From NCBI GenBank assembly GCA_030068145.1, contig JAPJBO010000073.1:345501-409500 (forward strand): a stretch of 64,000 bases of DNA, in the 5' to 3' direction. A program made the position numbers and the translations under genes. Within the stretch, counting starts at the first letter, position 1. Each line of letters opens with the position of its first letter. The stretch is from Diplonema papillatum (Eukaryota > Euglenozoa > Diplonemea > Diplonemida > Diplonemidae). The notes beneath the pieces are model-generated. The model was not told the DNA's origin. It was given only the letters and a program-made list of their open reading frames with translations, and did no database searches. This document shows, one piece after another, positions 8,976-59,690 of the stretch.

Positions 8976-9045
8976 CACCCCGGACTCCCAATCCGGAATG
9001 CGGGAGTTTTTTGCTGTCGTTTGTGCGGTCGGCCTCACCCCCGCG
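8976..9045 (-). mobile_element. MITE-1 fragment
   Basis: This is the inverted form of the MITE-1 right half. TACACCCCGGACTCCCA is followed by GCGGGAG and GTGCGGTCGGCCTCAC. It then runs into an unrelated repeat (GTTAACAATGCATTGTTGG) that also occurs inverted near 39500-39545, so the far end is lost. Confidence 0.6.
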
Positions 9046-15659: not shown

Positions 15660-17460
15660 TTCTACTTTAGATTACTTAACCACATGCAGACGAAGAATAG
15701 TATAAGTTGTCACTTAAACGGATAGTTGATCACGAAAGTTCGCGGATGTCTGTGAAGGCCAAAATGTAGTCTCAGGTGGTTGCGGTGTGCCGTATTGAAA
15801 AGAATTGGCACAAATATTTCCAACGCGCCCTTTGTTGGACACGGAATGTTGCTCCAGACGCCAAACGGATGTCAAGGCGAAACCAAGTCAGAAAACGGCG
15901 ACTCGATGTGGCAGCGGTGCCCGTTCAAAACTGAGGTGTATAGTCCGCAACGTTGCCCTCACTCCTGACCCATCGTACGGAAACAGCGCAGTTCAAGGAA
16001 CGCACGCGTTCCAGTCCTTTAACTACCGCCTCGTTCAAGACGGCACTTTTCAAGCAGGACCCCTTACGGGCCACTCCTTTCACAGTGGTATTATCAACCA
16101 CAATGTCCACTCTCCCACTCTAATCGAGGGTGGCAGAGCCAAGACGTATGGAACCCGTTGGATAACAAATTCGAAACCTAATACTCGCAAGGTTTCTGGT
16201 TTGGCTCAAAAAGACGGGTAGTAGAAGATCGCTGTGCCTGACATGAGCCTGCGAGCGTTTAACCACGTCAGGCCAGCGGGAGCAAGGACGTTGTCCGAAG
16301 ACGTCGACACTCACCCTTCGCTGACGATGCCGCGGGTCACCTCCTCAACTCATTCCTATCCTGGTCGATCGACAAAACTGAGTTCAACTAAACCCACACC
16401 CCCGTCCCAAGTGGTTAAGAAGATTCCGCGAGCGTGTTGAACGAGCCGCTAACCCGAGAAAGAGCTGCGTAGTTTTTTTGTGCGGTGGACGATGTACGTC
16501 GTTCTGATGTCTGACAATCCCGCGGGACGTTCACATTGTAATTTTTTTTTTTTTTTTTTTTTTTTTGCTTTGTTGAGAATTGCCGAAGGGGTGTCTGAAG
16601 GGTTCAGCTGCCCCGTCGTGGCTCAAGTTCTCTCTTTGGTCTTTTTTTTCCCCCCCCCCTCATTTTTGTCGATCGAAAAAAGCGTTTCGCCAACTCCTTT
16701 GTGGATGGTTTTGTGCGGTGGACGATTTACGTCGTTATGATGGCGATTCGCTTCTCGTTCTCGTTCTTCGCCTCCCTTTCGGGTGGGGGGGGGTACGCTT
16801 TAGCCCGATTATCATCGCGGATTTCTTCCGGCGGCAACGGGGAAAAGGATACTGGTAAGAAGTGTTCGAAGGGGGGAGCGAGGGGGTGGAAATGGGGGGA
16901 GGGGTGTAGCGCACGCCTTTCTCCAACTAGGTTACTTTTTTTGTCTTTGCCGACGATTTCGTCGTTCCTTCTCTTTTTCGCATCTGGGTGCCCGGAATGT
17001 GTGGCCTTTGTATGGGGTCGGCTACCTCGTCTTCCAGTCTTTGTTCCTGGGCCGGTCAGTGGCGGTCATCACTGTGAAGAAAGTAGCCTCCTTTCGAGGA
17101 TCGTGTATGTCGCCAAGACATCCACCGATAAGTGCAATGTGATGTCACCTTCGATCAACCGCAGTTGAGCTGAGGGGAACAGTGGGTTGCCTTCCCGAAT
17201 GCTCGGGATTTTTGGTTTTCGCCACGATGTATGAATCCTCGGTTCCCAATCTGTTTTGAGAGTCGTTTCCTCCCTCCATTCAGAATCGAAATATTTGGCG
17301 ATGATCGTTTTGGCCAAGGACGAGTATTTTCACCTGCTCCGCAACGGGGAGTCGTGCTTTGTTTCGTGTTTTCCGGCGAGAATCGCTCGGTTTTCTTTTT
17401 CTGGTAGACTTGCAGGTGAGCAGCGACACCTCCCCTTGTTGCGAGCACGTGTACCGGGAA
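15660..17460. other. gene-free region apart from an RNase H relic
   Basis: Other than 15925-16110, no coding sequence is recognisable. 16530-17000 is T-rich, with two related blocks around GTGCGGTGGACGAT (16480 and 16710). The minus-strand frame 17155-17892 crosses repeats R3 and R2 and is not a gene. Confidence 0.5.
15925..16110 (-). pseudogene. RNase H relic of the YR retrotransposon family
   Basis: The minus-strand frame reads VVDNTTVKGVARKGSCLKSA, then VLNEAVV and VRWVRSEGNVAD. Aligned by eye this is the last third of the RNase H domain in the intact element at 52795-57216 (about residues 460-513 there), with the catalytic-type VVDN and N-x-A-D signatures. Frames break on both sides: the intact copy continues into MPSR, here replaced by unrelated residues and a stop. 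I cannot find the rest of the element within 500 bp. It shows the family inserted here before and has decayed. Confidence 0.7.
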
Positions 17461-30522: not shown

Positions 30523-30620
30523 TACTCCTGTTTGTGTCGACTTGCGAAGCCCGCGAAGGCTTTGGTCGCATTTAGCTGGCATAAAACTCCAGTACAAAAA
30601 AGAAAGTTGGCAGCGTTGGA
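30523..30620 (+). repeat. short dispersed repeat shared with 14515-14592
   Basis: CTGTTTGTGTCGACTTGCGA through GCATAAAACTCCAGT recurs at 14515-14592. It sits at the start of the calpain-like gene's second intron and ends with a GTTGGCAGCGTTGG motif that is shared with other short repeats (9090, 28990, 39485). Confidence 0.5.
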
Positions 30621-30659
30621 ACCTGCCGTGTAAAGATACACAACAGGTCCTTCGCACAC

Positions 30660-31630
30660 GTGGATTCGTCGCTGCAGGGGAAAATGAAGTACCTGGTGCA
30701 GACGATCGACGATTCGGGGATGAGGCCGGACAGTCCTTTGCCGTACTGGTCGCCGTTCGCGATGATGAAGAAGAGGATCGAAGGGTCGTCGTGGCCGGAC
30801 ACTTCGAGCTTGACGACGAACTGCTGCCCCGGCACTGGGCACACCAGCTCGAACTGCGGGTTGCCCGTGGCGTCCTGGTACGTCGACGACTTCTCCCACT
30901 TGCCGGCCGCTTCCTTCTGGGACCACATGGGCAGCTCATTGAGGGTCACTTTTGGGACGGAGCAGAGGACGGTGACCGTGCAGGAGGACCGGCTGCCCTC
31001 CGGCTGAAGGCACGGGACTATGACGTAGCGGATGTCCCCACCGGGAAGCATGCAGGAGAGTTGGACGGTCGAGCCGATGAGGTACTTGCTCTTGACGAGG
31101 ACCCGGTCGTCGGGAATGGCACCGAGCACGCGTGACCCGTCACCGGCGCACACGAACACGACGATGCAGTGGTCGTCGTTTTGCTCGAGGTCGACCGTGA
31201 TCAGCAGCCTCGCCGGGTCGGGACTCTCCTGGATGCACAGCTCGAACTGCGGGTGGTCCTCCCCGTTTTGATACTCGCCGCTGGACGTCCACTTCGACGT
31301 GGCAACCGCCTCCCGCCAATAGTTCTCCGCCTTCTCGTGCTGCACCACAAACGGGGTGTCCGCCATGATCCGCGCGTAGTACGCGCCCACCTTCCCGGCG
31401 ACGTACGTGCTCGGCACCAGCCAGTAGATGCCCTGCTCGAGCGTGCCCTCGTACGACACGGAGTCCGTTATCAGGTACGGCGTCTTCACCACGACGTTGT
31501 CCTTGTCGTAGGTGATCGGGTAGTAGTCCGCCTTCAGCAGGTGGAACGCCATCGTGTCGATGTACACATTCGAAAACCGTCGGTCCGGGACGAACAAGTT
31601 GATGAAGAAGTTGCCCGTCTTTTGCACGTT
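30660..31630 (-). CDS. calpain-like protein, exon 2 (domain III repeats)
   Basis: 971 nt on the minus strand. It begins after CACACAG with NVQKTGNFFINLFVPDRRF, completing the first domain III that starts in exon 1, and ends ...YFIFPCSDES before a GTGTGC donor. It encodes further C2-like domain III units, each with an N/H-P-Q-F-E-L strand (DHPQFELCI, GNPQFELVC) and W-x-K/S-x-x-x-Y linkers (KWTSSGEYQ, KWEKSSTYQ). Together with exons 1 and 3 there are three tandem domain III units. These are lipid- or protein-binding beta-sandwiches in conventional calpains. Phase 0 in, phase 2 out, matching both neighbours. Confidence 0.75.
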
Positions 31631-31905
31631 CTGTGTGGAATTCAATGATGGGTGCGGAGAGTAGAGTGTGGCGGTTGGAGGTCCGAAGCGAAGTATGGCC
31701 CGCCTTGCCACGTTCATCAGTCAGTTTTTAAGCTTCTGGCGCGCTGTTTTTGGGTCCCGTGACTCTGATGGGTGAGGCGCGAAGCTTCATGTAGTAAATT
31801 TACACCCCGCCGCCTCCTATGTTTAGAGTTGAAAGTTCGCCTGAGAATGACTTTTTAGACAGTTTCAAATATTAGCGTTATTGTACCAACAAGGCATTGC
31901 GAACA

Positions 31906-32100
31906 CAAAATACTCGAGGGACTGCCCTTGTGCTCATTTCGACGGAGGCTAGAGGGGGAGAAAACAATACAACTACAAAGTGGGTCTTTTTTGTTGAACG
32001 CTTACGCCCGCCACTGAACCCAGATTTACCTGGGTTTCGGGTGGGCTACAGCACATTTACCTCCTCTGCACGTAATTCCTACGAAGCAGGTGCTTATGCA
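31906..32100 (+). repeat. repeat R1 inside a calpain intron
   Basis: R1 (AATACTCGAGGGACTGCCC to GAAGCAGGTGCTTATGC) lies wholly between exon 1 (ends 32170) and exon 2 (starts 31630) of the calpain-like gene, antisense to it. This is the clearest evidence that R1 is tolerated in introns. Confidence 0.75.
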
Positions 32101-32169
32101 ACAAAAGAAATGGGAGGACGCCGACACTGCCTGCCGAAGCCGTGTGCCGAAACGCACGAAAGCGCACAC

Positions 32170-33864
32170 CAGTTTGAAGCGAGGGTTGATGCCCCACGTT
32201 TGCTCGAAGTAGGGTCCGCCCGCAGTGGCCGCGCTCCACTCGCCGGGGATGAGGGTCTGCGCCCAGTTAGGGTACGTCTTGACGATGTGGACGGCCGACA
32301 GGTGCTCTATGAAGGCGGAGTACGGCATCCAAAACGTCGTGTCCGGGTTGTCCCGGGGGAGGGCGTGCCGGATATCAGGGTGTTGGTCCCACAGGGTGCT
32401 GCCAGCGTGCCAAGGACCGAGCCACGTCGTCGACTGGTACGGAGACGACAGCCGCAGGAGCCGATGCCCGTTGATCCCCCGCACGGACAGAATCGAATAC
32501 GCGTGGTCCTCCAACAGCCCAGTTTCCGCCAAGGAGCGGCCGCGGTCGCCGGACGACGAAGTCGTGCCCACCAGCAACGCGCCTTGCCCAGACAGGTCGA
32601 CGAGCTCCGCCCACCAAGCTTCGGAGTCGAAATCGTCTTGGTGCACGTCCCTCGTGATACCCGCACCCCCCGTGAACCCCACGACGGCCGCCGCTACGCA
32701 TGGCGCCTTCTCGCCCGGATGCGTCGAGCGGACCGATTGGTCGATGGCTTGGTACGAGCCGTGGATCTTCGCCATCGCTTTCTCCATCAAGATGATCCAC
32801 AGGGACCCAGCAGCCGGGGTGTCGGCCTTCATGCGCGAGAAAATCGGCCAGCCATCCGCGTCAACCGGGACGTAATCGTCGATCACAACCCACCGCCACT
32901 TCCCGTCGACGAACAGCTTCACAGTGTACACACCGTAGGGCGAAAGAGTTTTGGGCGTGATCATGTCTTCGAGTTTGTCGCCGTCTGCGCCGGTTTCGGA
33001 TAACCCGCGCTTCGCAGCCGCGAGAGACTCCATGAGCCACGTTGTGTTGGCTGCGCCGATCACGCAGTCCGCCGGTTCGATGAACGGGAAGGATGCCGGG
33101 AGCACGGTTGTTTTTTCGAAGACGTTCGGCGCCCTCCGCCAGGACACCACGCCGAAGTCCTTCAGCGCGCTGCGGTGGATCGCCTTCCAGTCGGTCGCGA
33201 ACTGCGGGTCGGCGAATCGCGCCTTGTGCCTCGCGCAGAGGCCGGTGATGCGGTCAATAGGGTTCTCGTCAAAGAGCATCTCGTTCACCGTCACGGGCAG
33301 CACCGACATCAGCCCCACGGCTTCCGCCATCGACACGTCCGCCGCGTCCACGACGTCCAGCGCGCCGCCCGCCGCCTGCTCCGTGTATACCTCCCTATGA
33401 GCCGCCGCGTGGTTCTTCCGCAGCTGTGCCTCCACCGCCCGTAGCTGCATGTCCCTCACAGCAGTGCCGTCGAGCCCGACTTCCTTGATCTGCGTGTTGA
33501 CCCTCACCAATTCGAGGATCGCCTTCCCAGCGCTGATGGTGATCGGATTACTGCTCAAGTCCAGCGAGACAATACCTTTGTGCGCTTGGAGGACGTCTGC
33601 CACATTCGACACGCACTGGTTGGTGAGTTGGTTGTCGCGGAGATCCAGGTGGTGGAGGCAGGGCGACACCTTCACGATCTCGAGCACCGGGAGCAGACCT
33701 TTCGGCCCGACGAAGTTCTTCGAGAGGTCGAGCGACTTCACGAGGGTGAACTTGTCCGGCGCGGAGGGCAGCTCCTTCAGCAGCAGGCTGTTCGCCTTGC
33801 ACCCGAGCTCCTTGCACCGCAGGCGGTAGACGTCTTGCACCGACATCCCGACGTACTCGACCAT
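32170..33864 (-). CDS. LRR-calpain-like protein, exon 1 (inactive protease core)
   Basis: 1695 nt, 565 codons from ATG 33864 (an upstream in-frame GTG is less likely). Residues about 15-150 are leucine-rich repeats (SLDLSKNFVG, HLDLRDNQLTN, SLDLSSNPIT), a layout I associate with kinetoplastid calpain-like proteins. Residues about 200-530 form a CysPc domain: FVDGKWRWVVIDDYVP, then GLLEDHAYSIL with His 454, then FWMPYSAFI. The catalytic Cys position (normally G-D-C-W) reads N-T-T-W (Thr 275) and the Asn of N-P-W is Ser 474, so two of three catalytic residues are missing. This is a pseudoprotease, probably structural or regulatory, perhaps at membrane or cytoskeleton. Residues 535-565 open domain III (GEWSAATAGGPYF), cut at a GTGTGC donor and continued in exon 2. 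Confidence 0.85.
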
Positions 33865-34616
33865 AGTATCCGCGGACCACCACCTCCCCTGCACCTCCTC
33901 TTTGCTTGCTTCTTCAGGAAGGCCCTGGACGGGTTCTTAGGTTTTCATGACTGACGCCTTAAACGAGTTTGAGTGCCTTCTGGCTACCCACCTTGAAGAG
34001 AATCTTATGGACTTGCGTCGTGATGAGGATCGGCGGTTGCTATGTTCTCCTTGAAAATGAGGAATGTCTGGCGGGAGAAACGCTAGCAGCTCGCGCTGAG
34101 TACGTCCCTGCTGAGGTATGCCTAGCAGGAGAATCGCTAGTAGCTTGCGCAGATTACGTCCTTGCTGTGCGGACCCCGTCGTTGCTACCGATTGGCTGTT
34201 GGATAGAGCTTGGGAGACTAGCAAGCTCAGCGGGAACAGCGGGAACAAAACCCTCGCGTAGAGCCTAAGGGTAAAAGCTTGCTCGGCACACGGTCTTCAG
34301 TACCGACCCTCGGTACAGTCTTCAGTGCCGACCCTCGGTGTGAAGGCACGGCCTAACAATCATTTGGTCTCGCTTCATCTTCAAGGGATGAAGCTGTCAG
34401 CGTTGACTTGAGCTCAAAAAAACTCAGTTCTCAGCGAAAAGCATCTCGATAGCCATCGACACATTTTTGGACAGGTCAGGCAAAAAACAAAAATCAGTAT
34501 CCTGTTCGACACCGAGTGCACTTGCTCGTTCGGATGCGCCCCGGTCCGACGAAGCTTTTGGACAACGTCCCGCGTGTCAGGCGTAGATAGCTGGTTCACC
34601 TAAAGTCCCTGGCACC

Positions 34617-39753: not shown

Positions 39754-40166
39754 CTGCATCTTCTCCTCCTCTTGCGCCCGCTCCGCCGCGAGGAGCGACT
39801 CGCCCGAGACCATGGGCGACCCCCTGTAGTCCTGGTCCTCCTCCTGCAGCCGCTGGCGGGCGCGCGGCGACCGGTTGACGTCGTCGCGGAGGTCCTGCAG
39901 GGTGCTGTTGTGCCCGTCGCTCGGCGACCGGTACGATCTCTGCGGAGACGCGGCGGGGACGACGATGCGCGACCGCGGCGGCGACGGCTGCGGGATCTCG
40001 CCCTGGTAGTCGGCGCTGCTCTCCTGGAAGCAGTACAGCTGCGCGTACGGCTGCAGCTGCGACGACGACTCCAGGTCCTGCCAGCGGCGGGAGTAGTCGT
40101 TGTACACCTGGAACCGCCTCACCCTAACGTGTTGCAAAGGCTCGCCGGGCGGCCGCTGCACCGTCG
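39754..40166 (-). CDS. BILBO1-like protein, exon 2
   Basis: 413 nt on the minus strand. The acceptor CCGCAG precedes 40166 and the GTATGG donor follows 39754. Exon 1 ends in phase 1 and this exon begins with two bases, giving ATVQRPPGEPLQ across the join. It encodes the second half of a BILBO1-N-terminal-type ubiquitin-like fold (VRRFQVYNDYSRRWQDL, then LYCFQESSADYQGEIP). A Ser/Arg/Pro-rich linker follows (SPPRSRIVVPAASPQRSYRS), then a helical Glu/Arg-rich segment (LAAERAQEEEKMQ). BILBO1 is a kinetoplastid flagellar-pocket-collar scaffold, so a cytoskeletal role is inferred. At least one further exon is needed (phase 0 out) and was not found. The 5' part of this exon is repeated upstream in the 414/423-bp array. 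Confidence 0.7.
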
Positions 40167-42277
40167 CTGCGGAAAGGTTGCGGGGTGATCGATTGGGGCA
40201 GTAAATCGAGGAGGTGGTAGTAGTAACTTGGTGTGATCAGATTCAGGTTTTTCTGGGTTTGCGCCGGCCCTTTTCGGCTTGTCCCGGGTTATTACCGGGT
40301 TTGCCTAGGGGTTTGCCTAGGGGTTTGCCGGGTTTGTGCCGAATTCTTACAGGGTTCTGGACCGCACAGTAGTAGTATACTGGATGAAGAAATCTCCGGG
40401 TCTTGAGATTGTGATAGAGGTAGTCGGCGCTGCTCTCCTGGAAGCAGTACAGCTGCGCGTACGGCTGCAGCTGCGACGACGACCCCAGGTCCTGCCAGCG
40501 GCGGGAATAGTCGTTGTACACCTGGAACCGCCTCACCCTAACGTGTTGCAAAGGCTCGCCGGGCGGCCGCTGCACCGTCGCTGCGGAAAGGTTGCGGGGT
40601 GATCGATTGGGGCAGTAAATCGAGGTGGTAGTAGTACCTTGGTGTGATCAGATTCAGGTTTTTCTGGGTTTGCGCCGGCCCTTTTCGGCTTGTCCCGGGT
40701 TATTACCGGGTTTGCCTAGGGGTTTGCCTAGGGGTTTGCCTAGGGGTTTGCCGGGTTTGTGCCGAATTATTACAGGGTTCTGGACCGCACAGTAGTAGTA
40801 TACTGGATGAAGAAATCTCCGGGTCTTGAGATTGTGATAGAGGTAGTCGGCGCTGCTCTCCTGGAAGCAGTACAGCTGCGTGTACGGCTGCAGCTGCGAC
40901 GACGACTCCAGGTCCTGCCAGCGGCGGGAGTAGTCGTTGTACACCTGGAACCGCCTCACCCTAACGTGTTGCAAAGGCTCGCCGGGCGGCCGCTGCACCG
41001 TCGCTGCGGAAAGGTTGCGGGGTGATCGATTGGGGCAGTAAATCGAGGAGGTGGTAGTAGTAACTTGGTGTGATCAGATTCAGGTTTTTCTGGGTTTGCG
41101 CCGGCCCTTTTCGGCTTGTCCCGGGTTATTACCGGGTTTGCCTAGGGGTTTGCCTAGGGGTTTGCCGGGTTTGTGCCGAATTCTTACAGGGTTCTGGACC
41201 GCACAGTAGTAGTATACTGGATGAAGAAATCTCCGGGTCTTGAGATTGTGATAGAGGTAGTCGGCGCTGCTCTCCTGGAAGCAGTACAGCTGCGCGTACG
41301 GCTGCAGCTGCGACGACGACCCCAGGTCCTGCCAGCGGCGGGAATAGTCGTTGTACACCTGGAACCGCCTCACCCTAACGTGTTGCAAAGGCTCGCCGGG
41401 CGGCCGCTGCACCGTCGCTGCGGAAAGGTTGCGGGGTGATCGATTGGGGCAGTAAATCGAGGTGGTAGTAGTACCTTGGTGTGATCAGATTCAGGTTTTT
41501 CTGGGTTTGCGCCGGCCCTTTTCGGCTTGTCCCGGGTTATTACCGGGTTTGCCTAGGGGTTTGCCTAGGGGTTTGCCTAGGGGTTTGCCGGGTTTGTGCC
41601 GAATTATTACAGGGTTCTGGACCGCACAGTAGTAGTATACTGGATGAAGAAATCTCCGGGTCTTGAGATTGTGATAGAGGTAGTCGGCGCTGCTCTCCTG
41701 GAAGCAGTACAGCTGCGTGTACGGCTGCAGCTGCGACGACGACTCCAGGTCCTGCCAGCGGCGGGAGTAGTCGTTGTACACCTGGAACCGCCTCACCCTA
41801 ACGTGTTGCAAAGGCTCGCCGGGCGGCCGCTGCACCGTCGCTGCGGAAAGGTTGCGGGGTGATCGATTGGGGCAGTAAATCGAGGAGGTGGTAGTAGTAA
41901 CTTGGTGTGATCAGATTCAGGTTTTTCTGGGTTTGCGCCGGCCCTTTTCGGCTTGTCCCGGGGGGTTTGCCTAGGGGTTTGCCGAGGGGTTTGCCGGGTT
42001 TGTGCCGAATTATTACAGGGTTCTGGACCGCACAGTAGTAGTATACTGGATGAAGAAATCTCCGGGCCTTGAGATTGTGATAGAGGTAGTCGGCGCTGCT
42101 CTCCTGGAAGCAGTACAGCTGCGTGTACGGCTGCAGCTGCGACGACGACTCCAGGTCCTGCCAGCGGCGGGAGTAGTCGTTGTACACCTGGAACCGCCTC
42201 ACCCTAACGTGCTGCAGAGGCTCGCCGGGCGGCCGCTGCACCGTCGCTGTGGAAAGGTTGCGGGGCGATCGATTGGC
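40006..42277 (-). repeat. exon-bearing tandem array (414/423 bp units)
   Basis: Units: 40006-40419 (414 bp, overlapping the real exon 2), 40420-40842 (423), 40843-41256 (414), 41257-41679 (423), 41680-42085 (406), then a partial unit to 42277. Each holds the 3' end of an intron, its CAG acceptor, and the first about 160 nt of exon 2 (through SSADY), then jumps to intron-like DNA with CCTAGGGGTTTG minisatellite repeats. Copies 2 and 4 encode identical residues and so do the bodies around units 1 and 3, giving an 837-bp higher-order repeat. The copied exons lack the real donor, so they read on into LYHNLK(T/A)RRFLHP. Confidence 0.85.
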
Positions 42278-44053: not shown

Positions 44054-45942
44054 TAGAGCGCCACCACCTGAGAACCTGTGTTGCACTTCTGCGAGACCCA
44101 TCCTAAGCTGCGAACGCGGAGAAAGGGTGGATGATACGGTTCACCCTCTTCCCCCATCTCTTGGCCTCGACGCGTGGTTGTAAAGAAAGCGGACCAAAGC
44201 CACTTTCAGTGGAACAGGGCGCGCAAACTGCGCGGGGAAAAAAGAACGGACAAGCAAGACAAGTAAGAAAGTGAAACAGATAAAAATGGGGAAAAAACGA
44301 AAACGACAAAAAGAAGAACAAAAAAAAAAAAAAATAATAATAATAATGCGATTAGGAAGAACAAGAAGCCGGAGACGGAATAGAGTACACGAATATCGAT
44401 GTGAAAAGCGCATGGAAAGACCCGTAGAGAGTCCCGAATGCCACCGAACGGTGGTAAGGAGAGCGTGCCCCAAAGCAGTTGCGTTGCCAAGCCCCCAGTA
44501 AGAAAGGGACCTTGCCAACCAATAGTCGGGGGGTTGCGGTGCAGCGACACTATACCCCGAAGGGTGATGCGACAGCTGTATGTTTAGCTGCTTCGACAAG
44601 ACAACGGCACGATCATCCCATCCGGCGCTTGGGTTTCCGAGGCCACTGAGTGGCACAAGCAAAGAATAGCAGAAGATTCGTCGTCTTTCAATACAGGACA
44701 TCAACACAGACAGCGGCGGCACTGGGGTTGACTGTGTCGTGACCTCAACAGAAGACGCGAGACAACCCGGGAACCCTCAGCAAACTCGATCCAAGTTGCC
44801 ACCCGCTCCTGCTCAGTCGTTTCACTCAAGGATCCGATGCCGCCCAGCAATCGCTTGGCATATTTTACCTAACCTGAACAAGACTCCGGAGTGAACCAGC
44901 GGCTAGATGGGCTCTTTGGCCATGTATACGCCGGTCCATCCCCTCCTGATAGATGGTGATAGACAGAATGCAGCTCCAGGCAATTCTATGCAGCTCCAGG
45001 GGATAGATATGGACCTGATAGACCGTGGTGGACCTCGATTTCGCTACAATGAACAGCGGCAGGCAACTCGATGCAGTTCCAGGAGATAGGGATGGGCCGG
45101 CTTTGTGTATCCAGCTTTGACGAGCTGACTTGCCCTGAAGTGGGAGGTCAACCGACCCACCTCTATCCCCTGGAGCAGCATTGAATTGTTTGGAGCTGTC
45201 CATCATCGGGAAAATGACGGTCAGACCCGGAGCTGCGTAGAAGTGAGTGACTGGTGCTGGTCTATGACAGTGACGATGAATCGAATGGGTGACAGCGCCC
45301 GAAGCGCCGCACAGCAAGGGCGAAGGGTAGTACGGGCCCTCGATACAGATATTCTGGATGCTAACTTCGAAGACGAACTATCGACGGCGTCCACGGCACA
45401 ACACGGTCGAACAAGAGGGGATGCGCCGGCTCCGAAGTACGCTTGTGGTTGTGTGATGCGCGAATTCTTGCAGTTTACTGAGGGAATAGGAGCAAGACGC
45501 ATGGCTAGATGAGCGCGGCCACCTCGAATCGACACCAGGAGAATCCGGGTGGAGCTGGCTTCTACGACTAGTAATACTCAGGTTAAAAGGTAGCACTCCT
45601 GAACTAGCCCGAACCAACGGGATTCGAAGAATGTCAGTCTCGCCTTCCCGATTATTTTGCTCCAATTCTTCGCGGTCCGGTCCTCTTTTCGCAAGGCGCG
45701 ATGGCGCGCCCTGCGTGCCTTCTCTCGTACGCAGCACGAAGCCCCGTCGCGCGGACAGTTGCCTCGCGTTTGCCAACTGGCAGACAGCGCGTCGTCACGA
45801 ATACGTACTTCGCTGGTGCTGTCCCCGGTCCTGTATTATTCCATCCCCCCCGCCCCTTTCCCCTCTCTCTGAGCCAGACCGGATGGACAAGAAGCTGCTG
45901 CGGGCCCTGAAGGGTTCCGGCCACGCTCGTCACGAAGCTGGA

Positions 45943-46012
45943 TCCCCTCAATGCGGGAGTGGGACCCCCTCAATGCGGGAGTGGGACCCCCTCAATGCGG
46001 GAATGGGACCCG
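45943..46012 (-). repeat. MITE-1-derived 22-bp repeat, three copies
   Basis: Three direct copies of a 22-bp unit (CCCTCAATGCGGGAG + TGGGACC), the inverse of the unit amplified at 51-57.7 kb but with the GCGGG variant instead of GAGGG. It looks like an early stage of the same expansion. Confidence 0.75.
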
Positions 46013-50623: not shown

Positions 50624-51009
50624 CTGAAGGGTAGGTTTTTTGAGTTTTGCAAACGCACGTGTCGTTCCCTTAACATGAGGCGCCAGGAGCTATCTCCTGG
50701 GTGAGTGTTTCTGCTCTTCGTGTTGTGTTCGCTTTGCCCGAAAAGCAGTCGGCGGGCACCGAGGGTGTGCGCGAATCGTACGGGATGTGCCCAACGTAGA
50801 CAATCAGAACTGTCCGAGGGTAGAACCAATTGAGCCAGTCCAGCACAGGCTATCGTAGGCTATCAGGAAATTATAGACGGTACGACGAAGAGGTGGTCTA
50901 ATGCAAGTCTTCGCTACAGATATTCTGCACCTAACCTCAACAATTGTGGTCGAACCCACACCCCGGACTTCAGCAGCCACTAAGCCAATGCGGGAGTGAA
51001 AAAGTGCGG

Positions 51010-52794
51010 GAGTGGCCACTCCCGCATTGAGGGGGTCCCACTCCCTCATTGAGGGGGTCCCACTCCCTCATTGAGGGGGTCCCACTCCCTCATTGAGGGG
51101 GTCCCACTCCCTCATTGAGGGGGTCCCACTCCCGCATTGAGGGGGTCCCACTCCCTCATTGAGGGGGTCCCACTCCCTCATTGAGGGGGTCCCACTCCCT
51201 CATTGAGGGGGTCCCACTCCCTCATTGAGGGGGTCCCACTCCCTCATTGAGGGGGTCCCACTCCCTCATTGAGGGGGTCCCACTCCCTCATTGAGGGGGT
51301 CCCACTCCCTCATTGAGGGGGTCCCACTCCCTCATTGAGGGGGTCCCACTCCCTCATTGAGGGGGTCCCACTCCCTCATTGAGGGGGTCCCACTCCCTCA
51401 TTGAGGGGGTCCCACTCCCTCATTGAGGGGGTCCCACTCCCTCATTGAGGGGGTCCCACTCCCTCATTGAGGGGTCCCACTCCCTCATTGAGGGGGTCCC
51501 ACTCCCTCATTGAGGGGGTCCCACTCCCTCATTGAGGGGGTCCCACTCCCTCATTGAGGGGGTCCCACTCCCTCATTGAGGGGGTCCCACTCCCTCATTG
51601 AGGGGGTCCCACTCCCTCATTGAGGGGGTCCCACTCCCTCATTGAGGGGGTCCCACTCCCTCATTGAGGGGGTCCCACTCCCTCATTGAGGGGGTCCCAC
51701 TCCCTCATTGAGGGGGTCCCACTCCCTCATTGAGGGGGTCCCACTCCCTCATTGAGGGGGTCCCACTCCCTCATTGAGGGGGTCCCACTCCCTCATTGAG
51801 GGGGTCCCACTCCCTCATTGAGGGGGTCCCACTCCCTCATTGAGGGGGTCCCACTCCCTCATTGAGGGGGTCCCACTCCCTCATTGAGGGGGTCCCACTC
51901 CCTCATTGAGGGGGTCCCACTCCCTCATTGAGGGGGTCCCACTCCCTCATTGAGGGGGTCCCACTCCCTCATTGAGGGGGTCCCACTCCCTCATTGAGGG
52001 GGTCCCACTCCCTCATTGAGGGGGTCCCACTCCCTCATTGAGGGGGTCCCACTCCCTCATTGAGGGGGTCCCACTCCCTCATTGAGGGGGTCCCACTCCC
52101 TCATTGAGGGGGTCCCACTCCCTCATTGAGGGGGTCCCACTCCCTCATTGAGGGGGTCCCACTCCCTCATTGAGGGGGTCCCACTCCCTCATTGAGGGGG
52201 TCCCACTCCCTCATTGAGGGGGTCCCACTCCCTCATTGAGGGGGTCCCACTCCCTCATTGAGGGGGTCCCACTCCCTCATTGAGGGGGTCCCACTCCCTC
52301 ATTGAGGGGGTCCCACTCCCTCATTGAGGGGGTCCCACTCCCTCATTGAGGGGGTCCCACTCCCTCATTGAGGGGGTCCCACTCCCTCATTGAGGGGGTC
52401 CCACTCCCTCATTGAGGGGGTCCCACTCCCTCATTGAGGGGGTCCCACTCCCTCATTGAGGGGGTCCCACTCCCTCATTGAGGGGGTCCCACTCCCTCAT
52501 TGAGGGGGTCCCACTCCCTCATTGAGGGGGTCCCACTCCCTCATTGAGGGGGTCCCACTCCCTCATTGAGGGGGTCCCACTCCCTCATTGAGGGGGTCCC
52601 ACTCCCTCATTGAGGGGGTCCCACTCCCTCATTGAGGGGGTCCCACTCCCTCATTGAGGGGGTCCCACTCCCTCATTGAGGGGGTCCCACTCCCTCATTG
52701 AGGGGGTCCCACTCCCTCATTGAGGGGTCCCACTCCCGCATTGGGGGTCCCACTCCCTCATTGAGGGGGTCCCACTCCCTCATTGAGGGGGTCC
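51010..52794 (+). repeat. 22-bp satellite, left block
   Basis: About 80 direct units of 22 bp (CCCTCATTGAGGGGG + TCCCACT), almost all identical. Rare variant units with CCCGCATTGAGGG lie near the edges (51017, 51130, 52735). A one-base shortening (GAGGGG) occurs at 51471 and 52724. It continues at 57217 beyond the retrotransposon. Confidence 0.95.
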
Positions 52795-52914
52795 TGCACT
52801 TCAGTGAGGGAATACTGCCAAGGTTTTCGTAAGTTATAAACCATCATTTCCATTCTTCTTCTTCACCTTCACAAACAAAGGAAGGGGGGACGTGGAGAGG
52901 GTGGCTGTTGCTTT
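52795..52914 (+). repeat. split direct repeat A1
   Basis: 120 bp (TGCACTTCAGTGAGGG to GGTGGCTGTTGCTTT), apparently identical to A2 at 56941-57060. It ends two bases before the GAG start codon, so it presumably contains the promoter and 5' untranslated region. Confidence 0.9.
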
Positions 52915-52915
52915 T

Positions 52916-53956
52916 ATGGCGGAGCAGACGTACTTCTCGAATGTCGGCGCCGGGGCGCCTGTGTATGATTTCGAATTCCCGAGGGGGTTGCAGGGCCTAT
53001 TCAAGGCCAAGATCGGCGAACCCCTCGGGAGGCGGAAAATAAACAAGGCGGACTTGCTGGCTTGGGCCGGCCACCACGTCAGGGCGGTTCCCACCAACCA
53101 ACACGAAGCGGCGTTCAAAGCGGTGATTGCGGGCGCGTTGGGCGTTGAAGACGAGGATCTGGAGGGCATTGCGAGCCCCTATAGACTTGCCGCGATCGCA
53201 CAGGAGATCTGGCAAGTAAAGCCGGAGGCTTTCAAAGGTGAGGCCCTTCGGAAGGGATGCTGGCAAGACGGTGATCCGGTTCCTCTTCCCGCTGATGCGC
53301 AGGGGCCTCGAGACCCACCCACTCCGGTGTCGACCTTGCCTTCATCGACTACTTCGGATGATGACCTCCGTGAACAGGTGAAGCAACTGGCAGCGGCAGT
53401 TTCCATGATGGCGGAAAAGATGGGGAAGTGGGATGAGGCCCCGGCGCGACAGAAGCTGGTCGCACCCGTCGAGCCCCGGGCGAGTTCGACAGCCCCTGGT
53501 GTGCGAAGCCACTACAAGGCCCCGGAAGACCAGAATGATGTCCGGGACTGGGCGGAAGCGATGGACGCTGATGCTGATAGGTTGGTGACGAAACTGCAGA
53601 TGCGTTTTGTGACAGGCAGGGGGCACCTTCCTGGCGGGGAAATCCTCGAGACCCACTTCAGGATGTTGAAGAATTGGGTTCTATCTTCGTCCCAGTTGGA
53701 GGGTTGGCAGGAATGTCCCGAACAGGTGGCCTTGGGCAACGACCTCCTTCTGCAGGTCAAGTTGCAACAGAAGTTTGTTGAGGAAGGCATGAAGAGGAGC
53801 TCGCTTCTCAGCCGTTTGGCGGAAAAAGATGACGACCCTGTTGAAGTCGCTGCGGCGCAGGAAAGGCGGGACGCTAAGAAGCGCTTTCAGTTCAAAGAGC
53901 GGAAGCCGTGGCCAAAGAGGGGGCAGGGAAACGCCAGGGCCGGGGATGCAAAATGA
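52916..53956 (+). CDS. GAG-like protein of the YR retrotransposon
   Basis: 346 codons from ATG 52916 (an in-frame GTG at 52892 lies inside repeat A1 and is unlikely). Position as first ORF, acidic-to-basic layout, a predicted coiled-coil stretch (DDLREQVKQLAAAVSMMAEK, about residues 150-170) and a basic C-terminus (KKRFQFKERKPWPKRG) fit a GAG-type particle or RNA-binding protein. No CCHC zinc knuckle is visible. The frame ends at TGA 53954-53956 and is open again immediately afterwards into the recombinase frame, so readthrough could fuse the two. Sequence similarity to known GAG was not tested. Confidence 0.65.
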   Translation: MAEQTYFSNVGAGAPVYDFEFPRGLQGLFKAKIGEPLGRRKINKADLLAWAGHHVRAVPTNQHEAAFKAVIAGALGVEDEDLEGIASPYRLAAIAQEIWQVKPEAFKGEALRKGCWQDGDPVPLPADAQGPRDPPTPVSTLPSSTTSDDDLREQVKQLAAAVSMMAEKMGKWDEAPARQKLVAPVEPRASSTAPGVRSHYKAPEDQNDVRDWAEAMDADADRLVTKLQMRFVTGRGHLPGGEILETHFRMLKNWVLSSSQLEGWQECPEQVALGNDLLLQVKLQQKFVEEGMKRSSLLSRLAEKDDDPVEVAAAQERRDAKKRFQFKERKPWPKRGQGNARAGDAK

Positions 53957-54013
53957 CTGGCGTTTCCCCGGCCTCCAAGTGTGCCAGTCACAAAAAGCCA
54001 CCCTCACAAAGTG

Positions 54014-55138
54014 ATGCAAAGAAAGGGTGGCAACACGTCAGTGGCAGCAAAAGACAAGCAGTACACAAACCCGAGCTTGGGCGCGATTCATTCCTCCCTT
54101 CCGTCAACCCATACCGTTTTCAAAAACGACGTCAGCGAAAGTCTCGACACCGACGTGCGCATGATCCCGGACAACCCGACGTCCTTGATGGGAAAAACGG
54201 TTCATCGCCTTGTGGCCTCCAAGGTTGGCGACATGAGCCGTACCCGCCCGACACACGAAAGGAATGTCGGTTGGCGGGAGGCGAAGGGCCTATTGTGGCA
54301 GCTGGTCGGGCAGATGTGGGCGGAGTCCACCCTCAACACCCGCCGGAACCTCTGGCGTCGCCTGCACTGGTGGACCAGTTCGCAGGGGATCCCAATCAAT
54401 GCCGACACGGCGGCGCTGTTCGTACTCGCTACGAGCGTGCGCCCACAGGCCCAGTTGGCATACACGAAGGGTCTGTCGGCGGTCTTCGGCAAGATGGGGC
54501 TAGACAACCAGCCATTGTGCGCGCTGGCGTCGGCTTTGCGGGGGATTGGGGGTGCTGTGCCGGAGGTGCAGGCGAGACCCATCGTGAAAGGCGTTTTGAT
54601 GAGCTGGGCGCGTCAGCAGTCCCCCGATTTGCTACTGTGTGCTATGGTGGCATGGAAGACGGCTTCTCGGTGGGGGGACGCCCAGCCGCTCAGTTCGATC
54701 CAGTTTATCTGGGTGGCTTCGGACGAGGTGATCATAGATTGGTTCCAGACTCCGAAGGCCCGCCGCCGGGCACCTTTCAAGAACTCCCGCTTCTCAGTGA
54801 TCCGGGGGGACCTCACCCCGGAGATCGCGGCATTGTTCCGGTCCCTTGCCCCTTTTTCGAAGATTACGGCGATGGGCACAGATGGGCTGGACCGGGAGTG
54901 GGCCAAGTCGGAAGCGATGAGGGACTTCACCGGCCACTCCATCAAGAGGGGAGCGGCAAGCGAGCTGTATCGCCTCGTGGCCCTCGGCACGCAGATTCCT
55001 CTCCACCTAATCGACAGGATCCAGAAGCACGAGGAGGTGTCGGGAGAGAGGTTGGCAGACGTGTCAATCCGGTACGGGGCGGACCCGGTGCTGCTGGCAC
55101 GGGTTTTGAAAACGGGAGAGGTTTCAAAATACCTCTGA
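54014..55138 (+). CDS. tyrosine recombinase (integrase) of the YR retrotransposon
   Basis: 374 codons from ATG 54014; the frame is open back to 53957. Residues about 100-165 form a helical core-binding-like domain (TLNTRRNLWRRLHWWTSSQG). The catalytic domain shows Arg 219 (TASRWGD), Lys 248 (FQTPKARRR), His 308 in GHSIKRGAASEL with Arg 312, His 339 (QKHEEVSG) and a candidate nucleophile Tyr 354 (IRYGAD). In DIRS/Ngaro recombinases the box is usually H-S-F-R-R-G. Here the first Arg is Lys, with Arg next to it. It should integrate the circular cDNA. Location between GAG and RT is the VIPER/TATE order, whereas DIRS and Ngaro place YR last. Confidence 0.85.
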   Translation: MQRKGGNTSVAAKDKQYTNPSLGAIHSSLPSTHTVFKNDVSESLDTDVRMIPDNPTSLMGKTVHRLVASKVGDMSRTRPTHERNVGWREAKGLLWQLVGQMWAESTLNTRRNLWRRLHWWTSSQGIPINADTAALFVLATSVRPQAQLAYTKGLSAVFGKMGLDNQPLCALASALRGIGGAVPEVQARPIVKGVLMSWARQQSPDLLLCAMVAWKTASRWGDAQPLSSIQFIWVASDEVIIDWFQTPKARRRAPFKNSRFSVIRGDLTPEIAALFRSLAPFSKITAMGTDGLDREWAKSEAMRDFTGHSIKRGAASELYRLVALGTQIPLHLIDRIQKHEEVSGERLADVSIRYGADPVLLARVLKTGEVSKYL

Positions 55139-55164
55139 ACCACAACGACTTCCCGTTGTCTCCG

Positions 55165-56805
55165 ATGGATTTCGCGAGGCATTCTATCACCAGGCGCGGG
55201 AAAGCAACGCGGCTCCCTGCTACCGCGGAGGAACGGGCCGCCCCTTTACACATTGCTTCCGTGCCGCCTATGCGGGTCGACTTGCTGCGTTCGAGGATGA
55301 AGGTCGAGGTTCGCGATCGTTTCGACGTGGCTTGGCGGTTTTTGTGCGCCTCTCCTCCCGAAGGCTCGGGCACCGACCCGATCGGAAAGGCAAGTGATTT
55401 TACCTCTGACCATGCACAATTGCTGGCTCGGCACGGGGTGGCGCGGCGGGCTCCCGGTGCGGGGCCGCTCCGGAACGTTCCTTTCACCGTTCTGGAGGAG
55501 AAGGCCTCCGGTCTTCGGCAGCGCTTTATCCTTTGGACGGAAGAGGCCAATGCTTTGGCCAGAGCTGCCGGGTACGAGGCGGAGGTGCCGTTGCATCATG
55601 TTTCTGCCTACTTAAGGGCTGTGAAGCAGCAGTGCGGTTCCACCAGGGATTTCCGCACGGGTTTCTATGCGGTGGAAATTCCGGAAAGTGCGAGGTATTT
55701 GTTTCGCTTTCGAGACAACGAAGGGTCGTGGTGGGAGCTAACCCGACTCCCCATGGGGCATACGTGTGCGCCTGAAATAATGCACACTCTCGCCGCCACG
55801 GCAGCCGGCCATCCGGACTTTGTCCTACCTCAGTTTCGTGCGGGCGACGTTGAAGTCGACGTCTGGGTGGATAACATCCGGTACGCCGGGTCGAAGGTGA
55901 ACGTTCTGCGGGCAACCGAGGCCTTGGATCAGACAGCAAGTGATTGTGCTCTCTCTTGGAAAAATGAGGATACGCATACAGCCGTACCCTCATACGAGTT
56001 TATCGGCGTGCACTGGGACCACCGGAGCAGCAAGGTGTCCGTCGCTCGGAAACTCAGGTCCAAGCTGCTAGCGACGCTGTACGGCCCGTTGGACCAGATG
56101 CCGGCAGGAGAGCTGGAAACCTTGGGGGGGCGCCTGTTGCACGCTTCTGCAGTGGCGGGCGTTTTCCCTGGTAGTTTTTATTTTTCCCTAAAATTCTTAC
56201 GACGTGTAACGAACGCCCTCAACAGGGGGCGGAGACTCCCCGGATCCCTCGTACAGATTCCGCCATCGGTGTCTTGCAGCCTGAAGACTTGGATTGAGGC
56301 CGCGTTAAAGCCGCGCGCCATGTTTTCGGAGTCCTCCGCTCCAGCCATTACGGCTTTCGTGGATGCCAGCACCAAAGGCTGGGGAGGTGTCATCGTGGAC
56401 GGGCAGACCATGGAACTGTCCATCTTGGGTGATTCTTGGTCGCCGGTAGAGCGGTCCCTCCACATAAACGAGTTGGAGGCGTTAGCTCTCATGAAAGTGA
56501 CTCGTGCCTTGCCCTTCGGGGTAAAAGGCAGATCCGTTCACCTAGTCGTGGACAACACCACGGTGAAGGGCGTCGCGCGGAAGGGCGCGTGCTTGAAAAG
56601 CCCGGTGCTCAATGAAGCTGTGGTGTCCTCTCTCGAACATTTGCGGGCGCTAGAGTGCCCGGTTTCTATGAGGTGGGTAAGAAGTGAGGATAACCCGGCG
56701 GACATGCCTTCGCGCGTTCCGTTGACCGACATAGGCGAAAAGGGTGTGCGTGAATTACAACTTGCGGTCGGGCGATTCCTCACTGGCGGTGTGGTAGGCG
56801 GTTGA
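55165..56805 (+). CDS. reverse transcriptase-RNase H of the YR retrotransposon
   Basis: 546 codons from ATG 55165, 26 nt after the recombinase stop. RT: TRDFRTGFYAVEIPE (Asp 162, motif A-like), TRLPMGHTCAPE (195-202) and VDVWVDNIRYAG, where the Y-x-D-D box reads W-V-D-N (Asp 236, Asn 237). RNase H: FVDASTKGWGG (Asp 400), HINELEALAL (Glu 438), VVDNTTVKGVARKG (Asp 463) and EDNPADMPSR (Asp 513), all four acidic positions kept. The Asn in motif C is unusual. The stop codon TGA lies in the first bases of repeat B1. The same frame is open back to 53908 through the whole recombinase gene, so expression by a -1 shift is an alternative to reinitiation. Confidence 0.85.
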   Translation: MDFARHSITRRGKATRLPATAEERAAPLHIASVPPMRVDLLRSRMKVEVRDRFDVAWRFLCASPPEGSGTDPIGKASDFTSDHAQLLARHGVARRAPGAGPLRNVPFTVLEEKASGLRQRFILWTEEANALARAAGYEAEVPLHHVSAYLRAVKQQCGSTRDFRTGFYAVEIPESARYLFRFRDNEGSWWELTRLPMGHTCAPEIMHTLAATAAGHPDFVLPQFRAGDVEVDVWVDNIRYAGSKVNVLRATEALDQTASDCALSWKNEDTHTAVPSYEFIGVHWDHRSSKVSVARKLRSKLLATLYGPLDQMPAGELETLGGRLLHASAVAGVFPGSFYFSLKFLRRVTNALNRGRRLPGSLVQIPPSVSCSLKTWIEAALKPRAMFSESSAPAITAFVDASTKGWGGVIVDGQTMELSILGDSWSPVERSLHINELEALALMKVTRALPFGVKGRSVHLVVDNTTVKGVARKGACLKSPVLNEAVVSSLEHLRALECPVSMRWVRSEDNPADMPSRVPLTDIGEKGVRELQLAVGRFLTGGVVGG

Positions 56806-56940
56806 CCTGGTCACCTGGTCAGGTCAACTTTCTTCCACTACGCGTCGTCAGTTACCGCTTTACTACGAGATGTTTTCACGTTTTCCCTTTGACAGTATTT
56901 TCCCCGAGAGAAACGCAACGAGAACGAAGGCCCGAATTCC
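56803..56940 (+). repeat. split direct repeat B1
   Basis: 138 bp (TGACCTGGTCACCTGGTC to AAGGCCCGAATTCC), matching B2 at 57079-57216. It abuts A2 directly, and the B1/A2 joint GAATTCC-TGCACTTC reproduces the junction expected in a circular intermediate. Confidence 0.9.
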
Positions 56941-57060
56941 TGCACTTCAGTGAGGGAATACTGCCAAGGTTTTCGTAAGTTATAAACCATCATTTCCATT
57001 CTTCTTCTTCACCTTCACAAACAAAGGAAGGGGGGACGTGGAGAGGGTGGCTGTTGCTTT
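56941..57060 (+). repeat. split direct repeat A2
   Basis: 120 bp apparently identical to A1. 18 bp of C-rich sequence (57061-57078) separate it from B2. Confidence 0.9.
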
Positions 57061-57078
57061 CCCACCCGCCCAACCCCC

Positions 57079-57216
57079 TGACCTGGTCACCTGGTCAGGT
57101 CAACTTTCTTCCACTACGCGTCGTCAGTTACCGCTTTACTACGAGATGTTTTCACGTTTTCCCTTTGACAGTATTTTCCCCGAGAGAAACGCAACGAGAA
57201 CGAAGGCCCGAATTCC
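57079..57216 (+). repeat. split direct repeat B2
   Basis: 138 bp copy of B1. It ends GAATTCC at the element/satellite boundary. Confidence 0.9.
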
Positions 57217-57700
57217 CACTCCCTCATTGAGGGGGTCCCACTCCCTCATTGAGGGGGTCCCACTCCCTCATTGAGGGGGTCCCACTCCCTCATTGAGGGG
57301 GTCCCACTCCCTCATTGAGGGGGTCCCACTCCCTCATTGAGGGGGTCCCACTCCCTCATTGAGGGGTCCCACTCCCGCATTGGTCCCTCATTGAGGGGGT
57401 CCCACTCCCTCATTGAGGGGGTCCCACTCCCTCATTGAGGGGGTCCCACTCCCTCATTGAGGGGGTCCCACTCCCTCATTGAGGGGGTCCCACTCCCTCA
57501 TTGAGGGGGTCCCACTCCCTCATTGAGGGGGTCCCACTCCCTCATTGAGGGGGTCCCACTCCCTCATTGAGGGGGTCCCACTCCCTCATTGAGGGGGTCC
57601 CACTCCCTCATTGAGGGGGTCCCACTCCCTCATTGAGGGGGTCCCCACTCCCTCATTGAGGGGGTCCCCACTCCCGCATTGAGGGGGTCCCACTCCCGCA
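57217..57700 (+). repeat. 22-bp satellite, right block
   Basis: About 22 units in phase with the left block. Ancestral GCATTG-type units appear at 57370 and in the last two or three units (57670-57700), next to the MITE-1 right end. Confidence 0.95.
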
Positions 57701-57779
57701 TTGAGGGAGTGAGGCCAACCGCACAAACGGCCGCAAAACCACTCCCGCAGACCGGCGGGGTGCAGTCTATCAGCCGGGG

Positions 57780-59690
57780 GGTCATTAATGCATTGTTAAC
57801 ACAAGAAAAACGGACGGCGGAATATGAAACAATACCTTGACCGTACAAGTTGACGGCCATCAAGTTCGAACCCGCAGGCGCGGTAAGGACTCTTCTCGAC
57901 ATGCTGGAAACAGCACCCCACGCAAGGCCTCCGCCGTCACGTCCTTATGCTTCCTACTCAAGCTGTGAGGGCCCGCCCCACCCCCCCACCGGACCTGGAG
58001 TGTCTTTTTGTGTGAGGCTGGCACGCTCGACGATCCAATACCGAAGGGAGAGACCTGGCGTGCGTCTTCGTAGGCTTATGTTCGGGCAGACTGTATTGCT
58101 CGGGCCCACGCAGGCTCGTTCCTTGTAAGCTCAGCGACTGCAGTCGTGCTGAATATTGGTGTCTCGGTGGGTGTGTGTGGGTGTCTGTGTCTGTTTGGCA
58201 TTTTACTGCCAGTGGTCGGGGGCTGATAGGTATTGAACATCTGTCTGGAATTTGGGCTCACCACTGAGCTGCTGCCAAGTTTCTGGAAGTGCACGCTTCA
58301 CTGCAGAGTATCCTGCCTCACGTTACAAGTGCTACCAGGACTAACAGCAGACTTCGTTCGTGCATCTGCGGTCTTACGGACGGAGAGGGAGGTTGTCCAG
58401 GGCACAAAAAGTTCGATGGGTCGAACTCGAGAGGTTGACGACTCCATAAACCATGGTAAACCTGGTGTTCCTTGGAAAGGTTTCGGAACACATCTCTGTA
58501 CGGCAGCAAACGTTGAACATTTTGACGTGCCTCGTGTCTTCTTCTTGACTCTGGAAGCACAGTGTCCGAACTCCAACTCGGGTCCTGGGTTTTCGACAAA
58601 ACTTCATGTCCCCCGTCTGTAAGGGTCATGTCCCCCGTCTGTAAGGGTCATGTCCCCCGTCTGTAAGGGTTTTGTCCCCCGTCTGTAAGGGTCATGTCCC
58701 CCGTCTGTAAGGGTCATGTCCCCCGTCTGTAAGGGTCATGTCCCCCGTCTGTAAGGGTCATGTCCCCCGTCTGTAAGGGTCATGTCCCCCGTCTGTAAGG
58801 GTCATGTCCCCCGTCTGTAAGGGTCATGTCCCCCGTCTGTAAGGGTCATGTCCCCCGTCTGTAAGGGTCAATTCGCAGAAAGGAGAGCAGGGTCCATCAT
58901 ATTTTACAACCGTGCCCGGCCCCGCAGTGCCGCGCGACAGAAGACCGAGGGAAGTGATGTTGGCTAGCGAATGCCGGCGCTGGCATAGAATGCCAGGGGG
59001 CAAAGGGAAGTGAGTGTGCGTGTGTGAGAGAGAGAGAGAAACGTGATGGTCGTGCGCAGTGCTACACCCTGGTACAAGACACCCCGAGACGAAAACGGAA
59101 GTCTCCTTGTCTGTCTGTACAAGAGTGGTGGCTGCGCAAACGCCCTGTCGGCAGACACGTTTCACAGAATTTTGCGAATCCCGCCTTTCCGATGAGTATC
59201 GCCAGACTTCCAAATGTTAGACGCGCACATCACGCTCTTTTTCACGGGAACTGCGTCAAAGAAAGCTCCCCTTGTGTATTGTGCTTGGATTTGTAATACA
59301 AAGTGTCTCGTCTGTTCGCTCCTTTAATCCGCAGACACACGAACCTCAGCAACACGGAACGTGAGCATCTGCTGCCATGTGGGCCCCTTGCGCAGACTGA
59401 AGGGAATGCGTGGAGGTGAGTGTGCGTGGTTCGGTCCTTTGATCCACAGACACACGGGCCATCATCAGAGCCTGAAAACCTTGAGTGACAGCGAAGCCTG
59501 ATTCGTCAGGTTCGCAGCTCGCCACAGCCAAGAGAGCATAGCATAGCAACTATAGCTGCATGGCTCGAAAGAACGCACGTACACGCCGATGAGAGGAAGG
59601 GGTCGTATTCCTGATACCATACCCAGGGCTAATGGCGTTTTCTCACTCCGTTGTCAACTCCCCGGCTAGGTGCTCTTGGCTTCGTGGTTA
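57780..59690. other. gene-free region
   Basis: No domain or splice-supported exon. 58260-58625 is open on both strands but featureless. 59410-59545 holds a decayed relative of the 42930-type repeat (CGGTCCTTTGATCCACAGAC). Confidence 0.45.
58604..58870 (+). repeat. 23-bp tandem repeat
   Basis: About 11.6 copies of GTCATGTCCCCCGTCTG + TAAGGG. One unit has TTTTGT in place of TCATGT (58668). Almost no divergence, so recent. Confidence 0.95.

Follow-up and report, generated by a model that had tools for sequence, protein, structure and literature searches.

Satellites housed inside miniature inverted-repeat transposable elements (MITEs) are already known from miDNA4 and Xstir of Xenopus, in which the internal unit is either single or repeated in an array of variable size and acts as a satellite source (PMC12628747). 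Among retroelements encoding a tyrosine recombinase (YR), TATE of Leishmania braziliensis holds a fixed position in telomeric hexamers (PMC6681497). Target duplication is absent in DIRS1, as recorded for the order DIRS. Here, we analyzed a 64,000-nucleotide stretch of the Diplonema papillatum assembly GCA_030068145.1 (271 Mb, 2,910 contigs), which is part of contig JAPJBO010000073.1 (C73; positions 345,501 to 409,500) and is referred to as the window. At 50959–57762 of the window, a MITE is interrupted by about 100 units of 22 bp, and a YR retrotransposon of 4,422 bp is located among the units. The locus is best explained, with good confidence, by three layers of which the last was directed: a MITE, an array internal to it, and a YR retrotransposon that targets arrays.

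Structure of the Nested Locus

All parts of the locus lie on the forward strand. The left half of the MITE (50959–51036) carries the terminal inverted repeat CACCCCGGACT and corresponded to MITE positions 1–80 at 87.8% identity in a blastn search with a 142-bp copy found at 6284–6425. The right half (57690–57762) has a short deletion near its end, and MITE positions 60–125 were aligned to 57690–57755 at 89.4% identity. Between the halves, Tandem Repeats Finder (TRF) identified a left block of 81.0 copies (51016–52794) and a right block of about 22 units (57214–57707, in two rows of 7.7 and 14.6 copies). The left block starts with a unit of the MITE type (CCCGCATTG) and continues mostly with CCCTCATTG; it is homogenised, as 76 of its 82 split pieces are the identical unit. 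The final units of the right block are again of the MITE type. These G units are thus located at both MITE borders and rarely elsewhere, the remaining interior being CCCTCATTG.

The initial annotation had described two MITE halves around about 100 direct units and a 4.4-kb retrotransposon within the satellite, and both descriptions were borne out. It had also considered that the halves might belong to two separate insertions, each with its own TA duplication. The outer flanking dinucleotide is instead CA on both sides (50957–50958 and 57763–57764), as expected from one MITE insertion and not two; such agreement would occur by chance in about 1 of 16 cases, and the dinucleotide is CA, whereas TA is the MITE target. 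The homogenised units on both sides of the element and the perfect unit obtained by joining its flanks indicate the order MITE, array, and retrotransposon, as had been proposed. The arrival of the retrotransposon, however, looks like the outcome of a targeting preference and not like an accident by which the array could be dated. The earlier account of the locus as a whole was therefore partly supported. A second 22-bp array of about 12 copies (TRF; unit TCATGTCCCCCGTCTGTAAGGG) was observed at 58604–58870, less than 1 kb away, with a sequence unlike that of the MITE unit.

The YR retrotransposon (52794–57215) has no target duplication. Its split direct repeats are laid out as A1-ORFs-B1-A2-B2, in which A1 (52794–52914) and A2 (56940–57060) are 100% identical, as are B1 (56803–56939) and B2 (57079–57215). 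The element contains three open reading frames (ORFs). ORF1 (52892–53956, 354 aa) is gag-like by position only and showed 28–32% identity to ORF1 of two relatives. ORF2 (53981–55138, 385 aa) encodes a putative YR, an assignment based on synteny and on R230, H319-x-x-R323, H350, and Y365, which we take to be the catalytic residues of tyrosine recombinases; they were invariant across three relatives that are 48–53% identical in the YR alignment. ORF3 (55138–56805, within a longest open frame of 53908–56805) encodes the reverse transcriptase/RNase H (RT/RH). The Pfam domain RT_RNaseH was matched with 25.1 bits, which slightly exceeds the cut-off of 24.8, and scores below the cut-off were obtained for the longer frame (23.7 bits) and for two relatives (22.4 and 15.7 bits), while the motifs of the RT domain were recognized by eye only. 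The order gag, YR, and RT/RH was observed in the C73 element and in two relatives (L097 and L098), and RT/RNase H combined with split direct repeats without target duplication is as in the order DIRS. A remnant of another YR retrotransposon was found on the minus strand at 15865–16116, with an RT/RH fragment 73–75% identical to the two RTs.

The full YR protein was found at 100% identity in 14 genome copies, including that of C73, and many subfamilies at 48–55% identity were among the matches (107 scored of 1,708 candidates). The identical repeats and the identical YR copies point to recent activity. No relative was found in phages by tblastn or in one scan of viral contigs.

Location of the Element Family in Tandem Arrays

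The A repeat has 59 genome copies within 3 mismatches; of the 43 examined, 16 were B1-A2 junctions inside an element and 27 were outer ends. An end was scored as lying in an array when the sequence beside the junction was periodic with a lag identity of at least 0.8. This test was passed by 25 of the 27 outer left ends and by 30 of 30 right ends, compared with 86 of 4000 points chosen at random in the window but outside the locus. Repeat controls gave 91/4000, 90/4000, and 44/4000 at lengths of 150, 90, and 60, respectively, and 43 of 3000 points passed in the MITE loci, which are no random sample. By coverage, tandem repeats with a period of at least 5 made up 13% of the window outside the locus and 7.3% of the MITE loci. 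When duplicates were counted once, the test was passed by 18 of the 20 distinct left flanks of 50 nt, which corresponds to binomial probabilities of 4e-28 at a background of 2.25% and 2e-14 at 13% if all 20 are independent, which may not hold for every one. The two left ends that failed were those at C40 (0.77, with a period of 71 at 0.97 on the other side) and C381.

The arrays belong to seven unit families of 31, 21, 22, 11, ~36/71, ~16, and ~10 bp. The 31-bp unit (CGGACG...) was found in both orientations, the 21-bp unit is GGGGGAGAGGTCC..., and the 11-bp unit is GGGGTCATAT; the ~36/71-, ~16-, and ~10-bp units were found at C40, C971, and C212, respectively. The 22-bp MITE unit was found at C73 and, on the one side read, at C183. 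There, an array of the MITE type adjoins the right flank of the element with the same insertion phase as at C73 (CCACTCCC), and C183 is very probably a second MITE-array landing site, judged from the right flank alone. At C35 (L128), the right flank is a 21-bp array by eye, one base short of the end for the scripted test. The 21 pairwise comparisons of the units revealed no clear relation, and the closest pairs were 21/16, whose score was equalled in 4 of 100 shuffles, and 21/22, with 8 of 100. Elements and flanks follow one another in the same order and at equal spacing at C287:565-7582 and C533:140122-147139, which may be a segmental duplication or an uncollapsed haplotype.

Insertion is precise, without target duplication, and occurs at T-N^C. 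The two flanks of an insertion could be paired 22 times, duplicates (C287/C533) included, and 20 of these pairs, once joined, matched a sequence already present in arrays with no more than 2 mismatches, while C1527 and C381 did not. The join at C73 was exact and restored a perfect unit (GGGGGTC^CCACTCC). The first base to the right of the insertion was C in all 22 distinct right flanks, and position −2 was occupied by T in 18 of the 20 distinct left flanks. A fixed TCC core was considered and dropped, as the two bases preceding the cut are TC, TT, or TA in most flanks. The left flank of the C381 element (L123), which is not an array, was also found without interruption at L122 (C220; GGGGTT^CCCACC), where the site appears to be empty.

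The MITE Family and Its Internal Satellite

The MITE is a non-coding element of 142 bp with 11-bp terminal inverted repeats (CACCCCGGACT/AGTCCGGGGTG), which were perfect by eye in 25 of 30 fetched 142-bp copies, the 30 being copies of one insertion. With its short length, non-coding sequence, terminal inverted repeats, and TA target duplication, it has Tc1/mariner-type features. TA was found at both ends of L091, of a copy at 8976–9216, and of the carried 142-bp copy, while the flanks are CA/CA at the C73 MITE and differ from TA on the right of L093 and L096. The copy at 8976–9216 has a different interior of about 130 bp that includes ATGCATTGTTAACACAA, which recurs at ~57788, just right of the locus.

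The single-unit copy at 6284–6425 (forward strand, TA/TA) had been taken as a complete MITE. The 142-bp copy is present, but it is not an intact MITE in its own right: in a genome search with it (40 of 951 candidates scored), all 30 fetched copies had TA/TA, and their 12-nt flanks were common to all except L021 (left side) and single bases. Thus, this is one insertion carried in a larger repeat. For the same reason, the MITE flanks (0/58 in arrays) were dropped as control insertions. The proposed three-unit stage of the MITE at 45943–46012 did not hold, as the three units (45941–46006, minus strand) have no MITE ends and are therefore an orphan fragment. A real intermediate is instead found at C3 (L091), where a MITE that is complete at either end and flanked by TA/TA encloses about 10 units, and it is a better reference than the copy at 6284–6425.

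Six array stretches were fetched, none of which contained the YR element. Both MITE halves were present in L091, the right half in L093, L095, and L096, and part of the left half in L094, while L092 was array throughout. Genome-wide, the junction of an array unit with the right MITE half was found at 324 places when up to 3 mismatches were allowed, compared with 40 places for the single-unit junction of the GTGG form, and a two-unit 44-mer occurred 1,261 times. The claim of a satellite within a MITE therefore holds and generalizes beyond C73, and the 22-bp satellite is repeatedly internal to the MITE. It had been added that units forming a satellite without MITE ends would speak against this origin; this was observed in part, as the left half is missing in L093 and L096 and both halves are missing at 45943. 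Expansion in place is the likelier direction. A MITE with one 22-bp unit would have been the starting point, and this unit would have become an internal array in many copies of the family, probably through slippage or unequal exchange and by expansion and not contraction. Among 100 listed array-to-MITE junctions, a row of 19 was observed at C286:40600-43789 with a spacing of 136–140 or 272–273 bp, indicating that MITE copies themselves were amplified in tandem.

Relatives of the Element

The outer left ends of two relatives with a YR about 50% identical, S1 and S8, were also scored. The 14 stretches read for S1 contained 7 outer ends, and 4 of these lay in arrays with units of 5, 10, 11, and 31 bp. 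For S8, nine stretches were read and six of them gave 7 outer ends; four were in arrays of 41-bp units, of which L097 and L112 may represent one event, and the right end was read at L097 only. The counts are small because the offsets used missed the end in several stretches. S1 and S8 thus have the array preference too, but in a weaker form, or in an older and blurred one. The S8 arrays (L097, L113, L114, and L119) and the 22-bp MITE array were observed by eye to contain a loose GAGG-x-GTCCCAC-like stretch, which could be due to chance or to a common origin.

Evaluation of Array Targeting and Alternative Explanations

Several observations weigh against array targeting by a YR retrotransposon. 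The array statistics rest on 43 of the 59 A copies, with the remaining 16 outside the sample, and the random control is one array-rich window and not the whole genome. Many copies duplicate one another (C287/C533/C1783 with common flanks and C495 in tandem), and there are thus fewer independent events than rows. The left end at C381 lies outside an array, with the right end in a 31-bp array, and the flanks of C1527 join only after the loss of one base. Among the relatives, 6 of the 14 outer left ends failed the array test: L098, L109, and L110 for S1, and L115 (degenerate, 0.66 at period 41), L117, and the second L097 end, which adjoins an inverted fragment, for S8. The ORF2 YR had no match among Pfam, PHROG, or PDB profiles (the best PDB profile, with an E-value of 0.16, was unconvincing), and its AlphaFold model from a three-sequence alignment had a pLDDT of 38.5.

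The array itself might have had another origin. The MITE may have captured a repeat, the single-unit copies then being contractions, as capture was proposed for miDNA4 of Xenopus (PMC12628747); the larger number of array-bearing junction places (324 vs. 40 of the single-unit GTGG form) and the arrays without MITE halves agree with this. However, the border units match the MITE's own unit and most interior units are derived, as growth in place predicts, and capture is possible but doubtful. Alternatively, the element may have been inserted first and the array formed around it later, for example, through recombination at the element ends. A variant unit of the CCCGCATTGG type can be found to the left as well as to the right of the element in the window, and blocks of units have thus been copied, but the element is missing from MITE arrays at C3, C18, and C138 (L091, L093, and L096, with the whole array in the stretch), the flanks join in register, and the units have no evident relation to the element; we give this sequence of events hardly any weight.

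The association with arrays could also be explained without any recognition of arrays. If the YR needed a short motif that these arrays repeat by chance, the T at −2, the C at the first right base, and the reuse of the same phase within an array type would be accounted for. However, T-N^C occurs too frequently in any DNA to restrict insertions to arrays, and the seven units had no clear pairwise similarity (no motif-discovery run was included), which leaves plain sequence preference unlikely. Survivorship, by which the element inserts anywhere and persists only in arrays because insertions elsewhere are harmful or purged, would be helped by the presumably non-coding nature of arrays and by the several S1 and S8 ends outside them. 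It appears improbable, since the identical terminal repeats at C73 and the 14 copies with an identical YR are probably too young for strong sorting, and most of the 271-Mb genome is presumably non-coding too, yet only C381 of 27 left ends is clearly outside arrays. Finally, one or two entries into arrays may have been multiplied by array amplification and segmental duplication, as suggested by the common flanks of C287, C533, and C1783 and by solo A-B forms of 262–277 bp, which account for 11 of the 22 pairs and were in part amplified with the array (three A ends 424 bp apart at C495). Such multiplication adds to the numbers but cannot account for the diversity of seven unit families, which were entered in both orientations with respect to the 31-bp unit, in different phases, and with 20 distinct left flanks; as the main source of the pattern, it is very improbable.

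Proposed Mechanism of Array Targeting

Targeting of arrays by the YR family can be outlined as follows. The element would form circular DNA, as in the known mechanism of the order, with a B-A junction of GAATTC^CTGCAC. This junction may recombine by YR strand exchange at a minimal T-N^C target, leaving no target duplication. The flank statistics suggest that the family picks tandem arrays almost regardless of the unit sequence, and the likeliest recognition step would be tethering of the integration complex to chromatin or to a DNA structure that tandem arrays have in common, while the T-N^C core would set only the phase inside the unit. The tether could be the gag-like ORF1 or the N-terminus of the YR. 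In Cafeteria, the loss of ORF1 accompanies a lost target preference in two Ngaro types (PMC8547959), and a gag-linked tether is therefore a fair guess. The MITE satellite at C73 would be one landing ground of the family. The broader proposal that this YR lineage recognizes tandem-repeatedness itself through chromatin or DNA structure, with arrays of any unit, including MITE-born satellites, as landing sites genome-wide, may equally well prove right or wrong.

To our knowledge, the target choice of tyrosine-recombinase retrotransposons has been little studied. A family that enters arrays of seven units, precisely and recently, makes it testable by which marks a mobile element recognizes an array. 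It also connects two processes that are usually kept apart, as transposons bear satellites and satellites become the targets of other transposons.

Other features of the window include a calpain-family protease gene with leucine-rich repeats on the minus strand at 30575–33936 (Pfam Peptidase_C2, 2.8e-37) and a tandem repeat with a period of 423 bp at 40005–42276 (5.5 copies, TRF).

Comparison with Known Systems

The satellite within a MITE is of a kind already known from Xstir and miDNA4; those elements differ from the C73 MITE in sequence and host, and at C73 a YR retroelement occupies the array (PMC12628747). Athila in the centromere satellites of Arabidopsis and microsatellite "landing pads" are similar in that transposable elements are enriched in or beside arrays, but Athila is a long terminal repeat element with an integrase, and it enters one kind of array, at centromeres (PMC12477314). 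In the open-access literature, we found no description of a YR retrotransposon family that targets varied tandem arrays.

Ngaro elements of Cafeteria burkhardae have repeats in the layout A1-[ORFs]-B1A2B2 and a target preference that depends on the type, and a methyltransferase domain is absent in both Ngaro and the C73 element as far as seen. They differ in gene order, with a gag-like ORF1, RT/RH in ORF2, and YR in ORF3, compared with gag, YR, and RT/RH at C73, and types 1 and 2a preferentially target integrated virophages and not tandem arrays (PMC8547959). The C73 element instead has the order gag, YR, and RT/RH and the split direct repeats of the VIPER-like elements (VIPER and TATE), whose gene order is given here as listed in Table 1 and in the legend of Figure 2 of PMC6681497. 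TATE resembles it as a YR retroelement with gag-like, YR, and RT/RH genes listed in that order and with at least one copy that has split direct repeats, and its insertion in telomeric repeats is the closest precedent. The only sites described for TATE in PMC6681497 are telomeric repeats, whereas the C73 family is found in several different arrays with a common T-N^C core. If tandem-repeatedness is what is recognized, TATE in telomeres would be one instance of a more widespread behavior.

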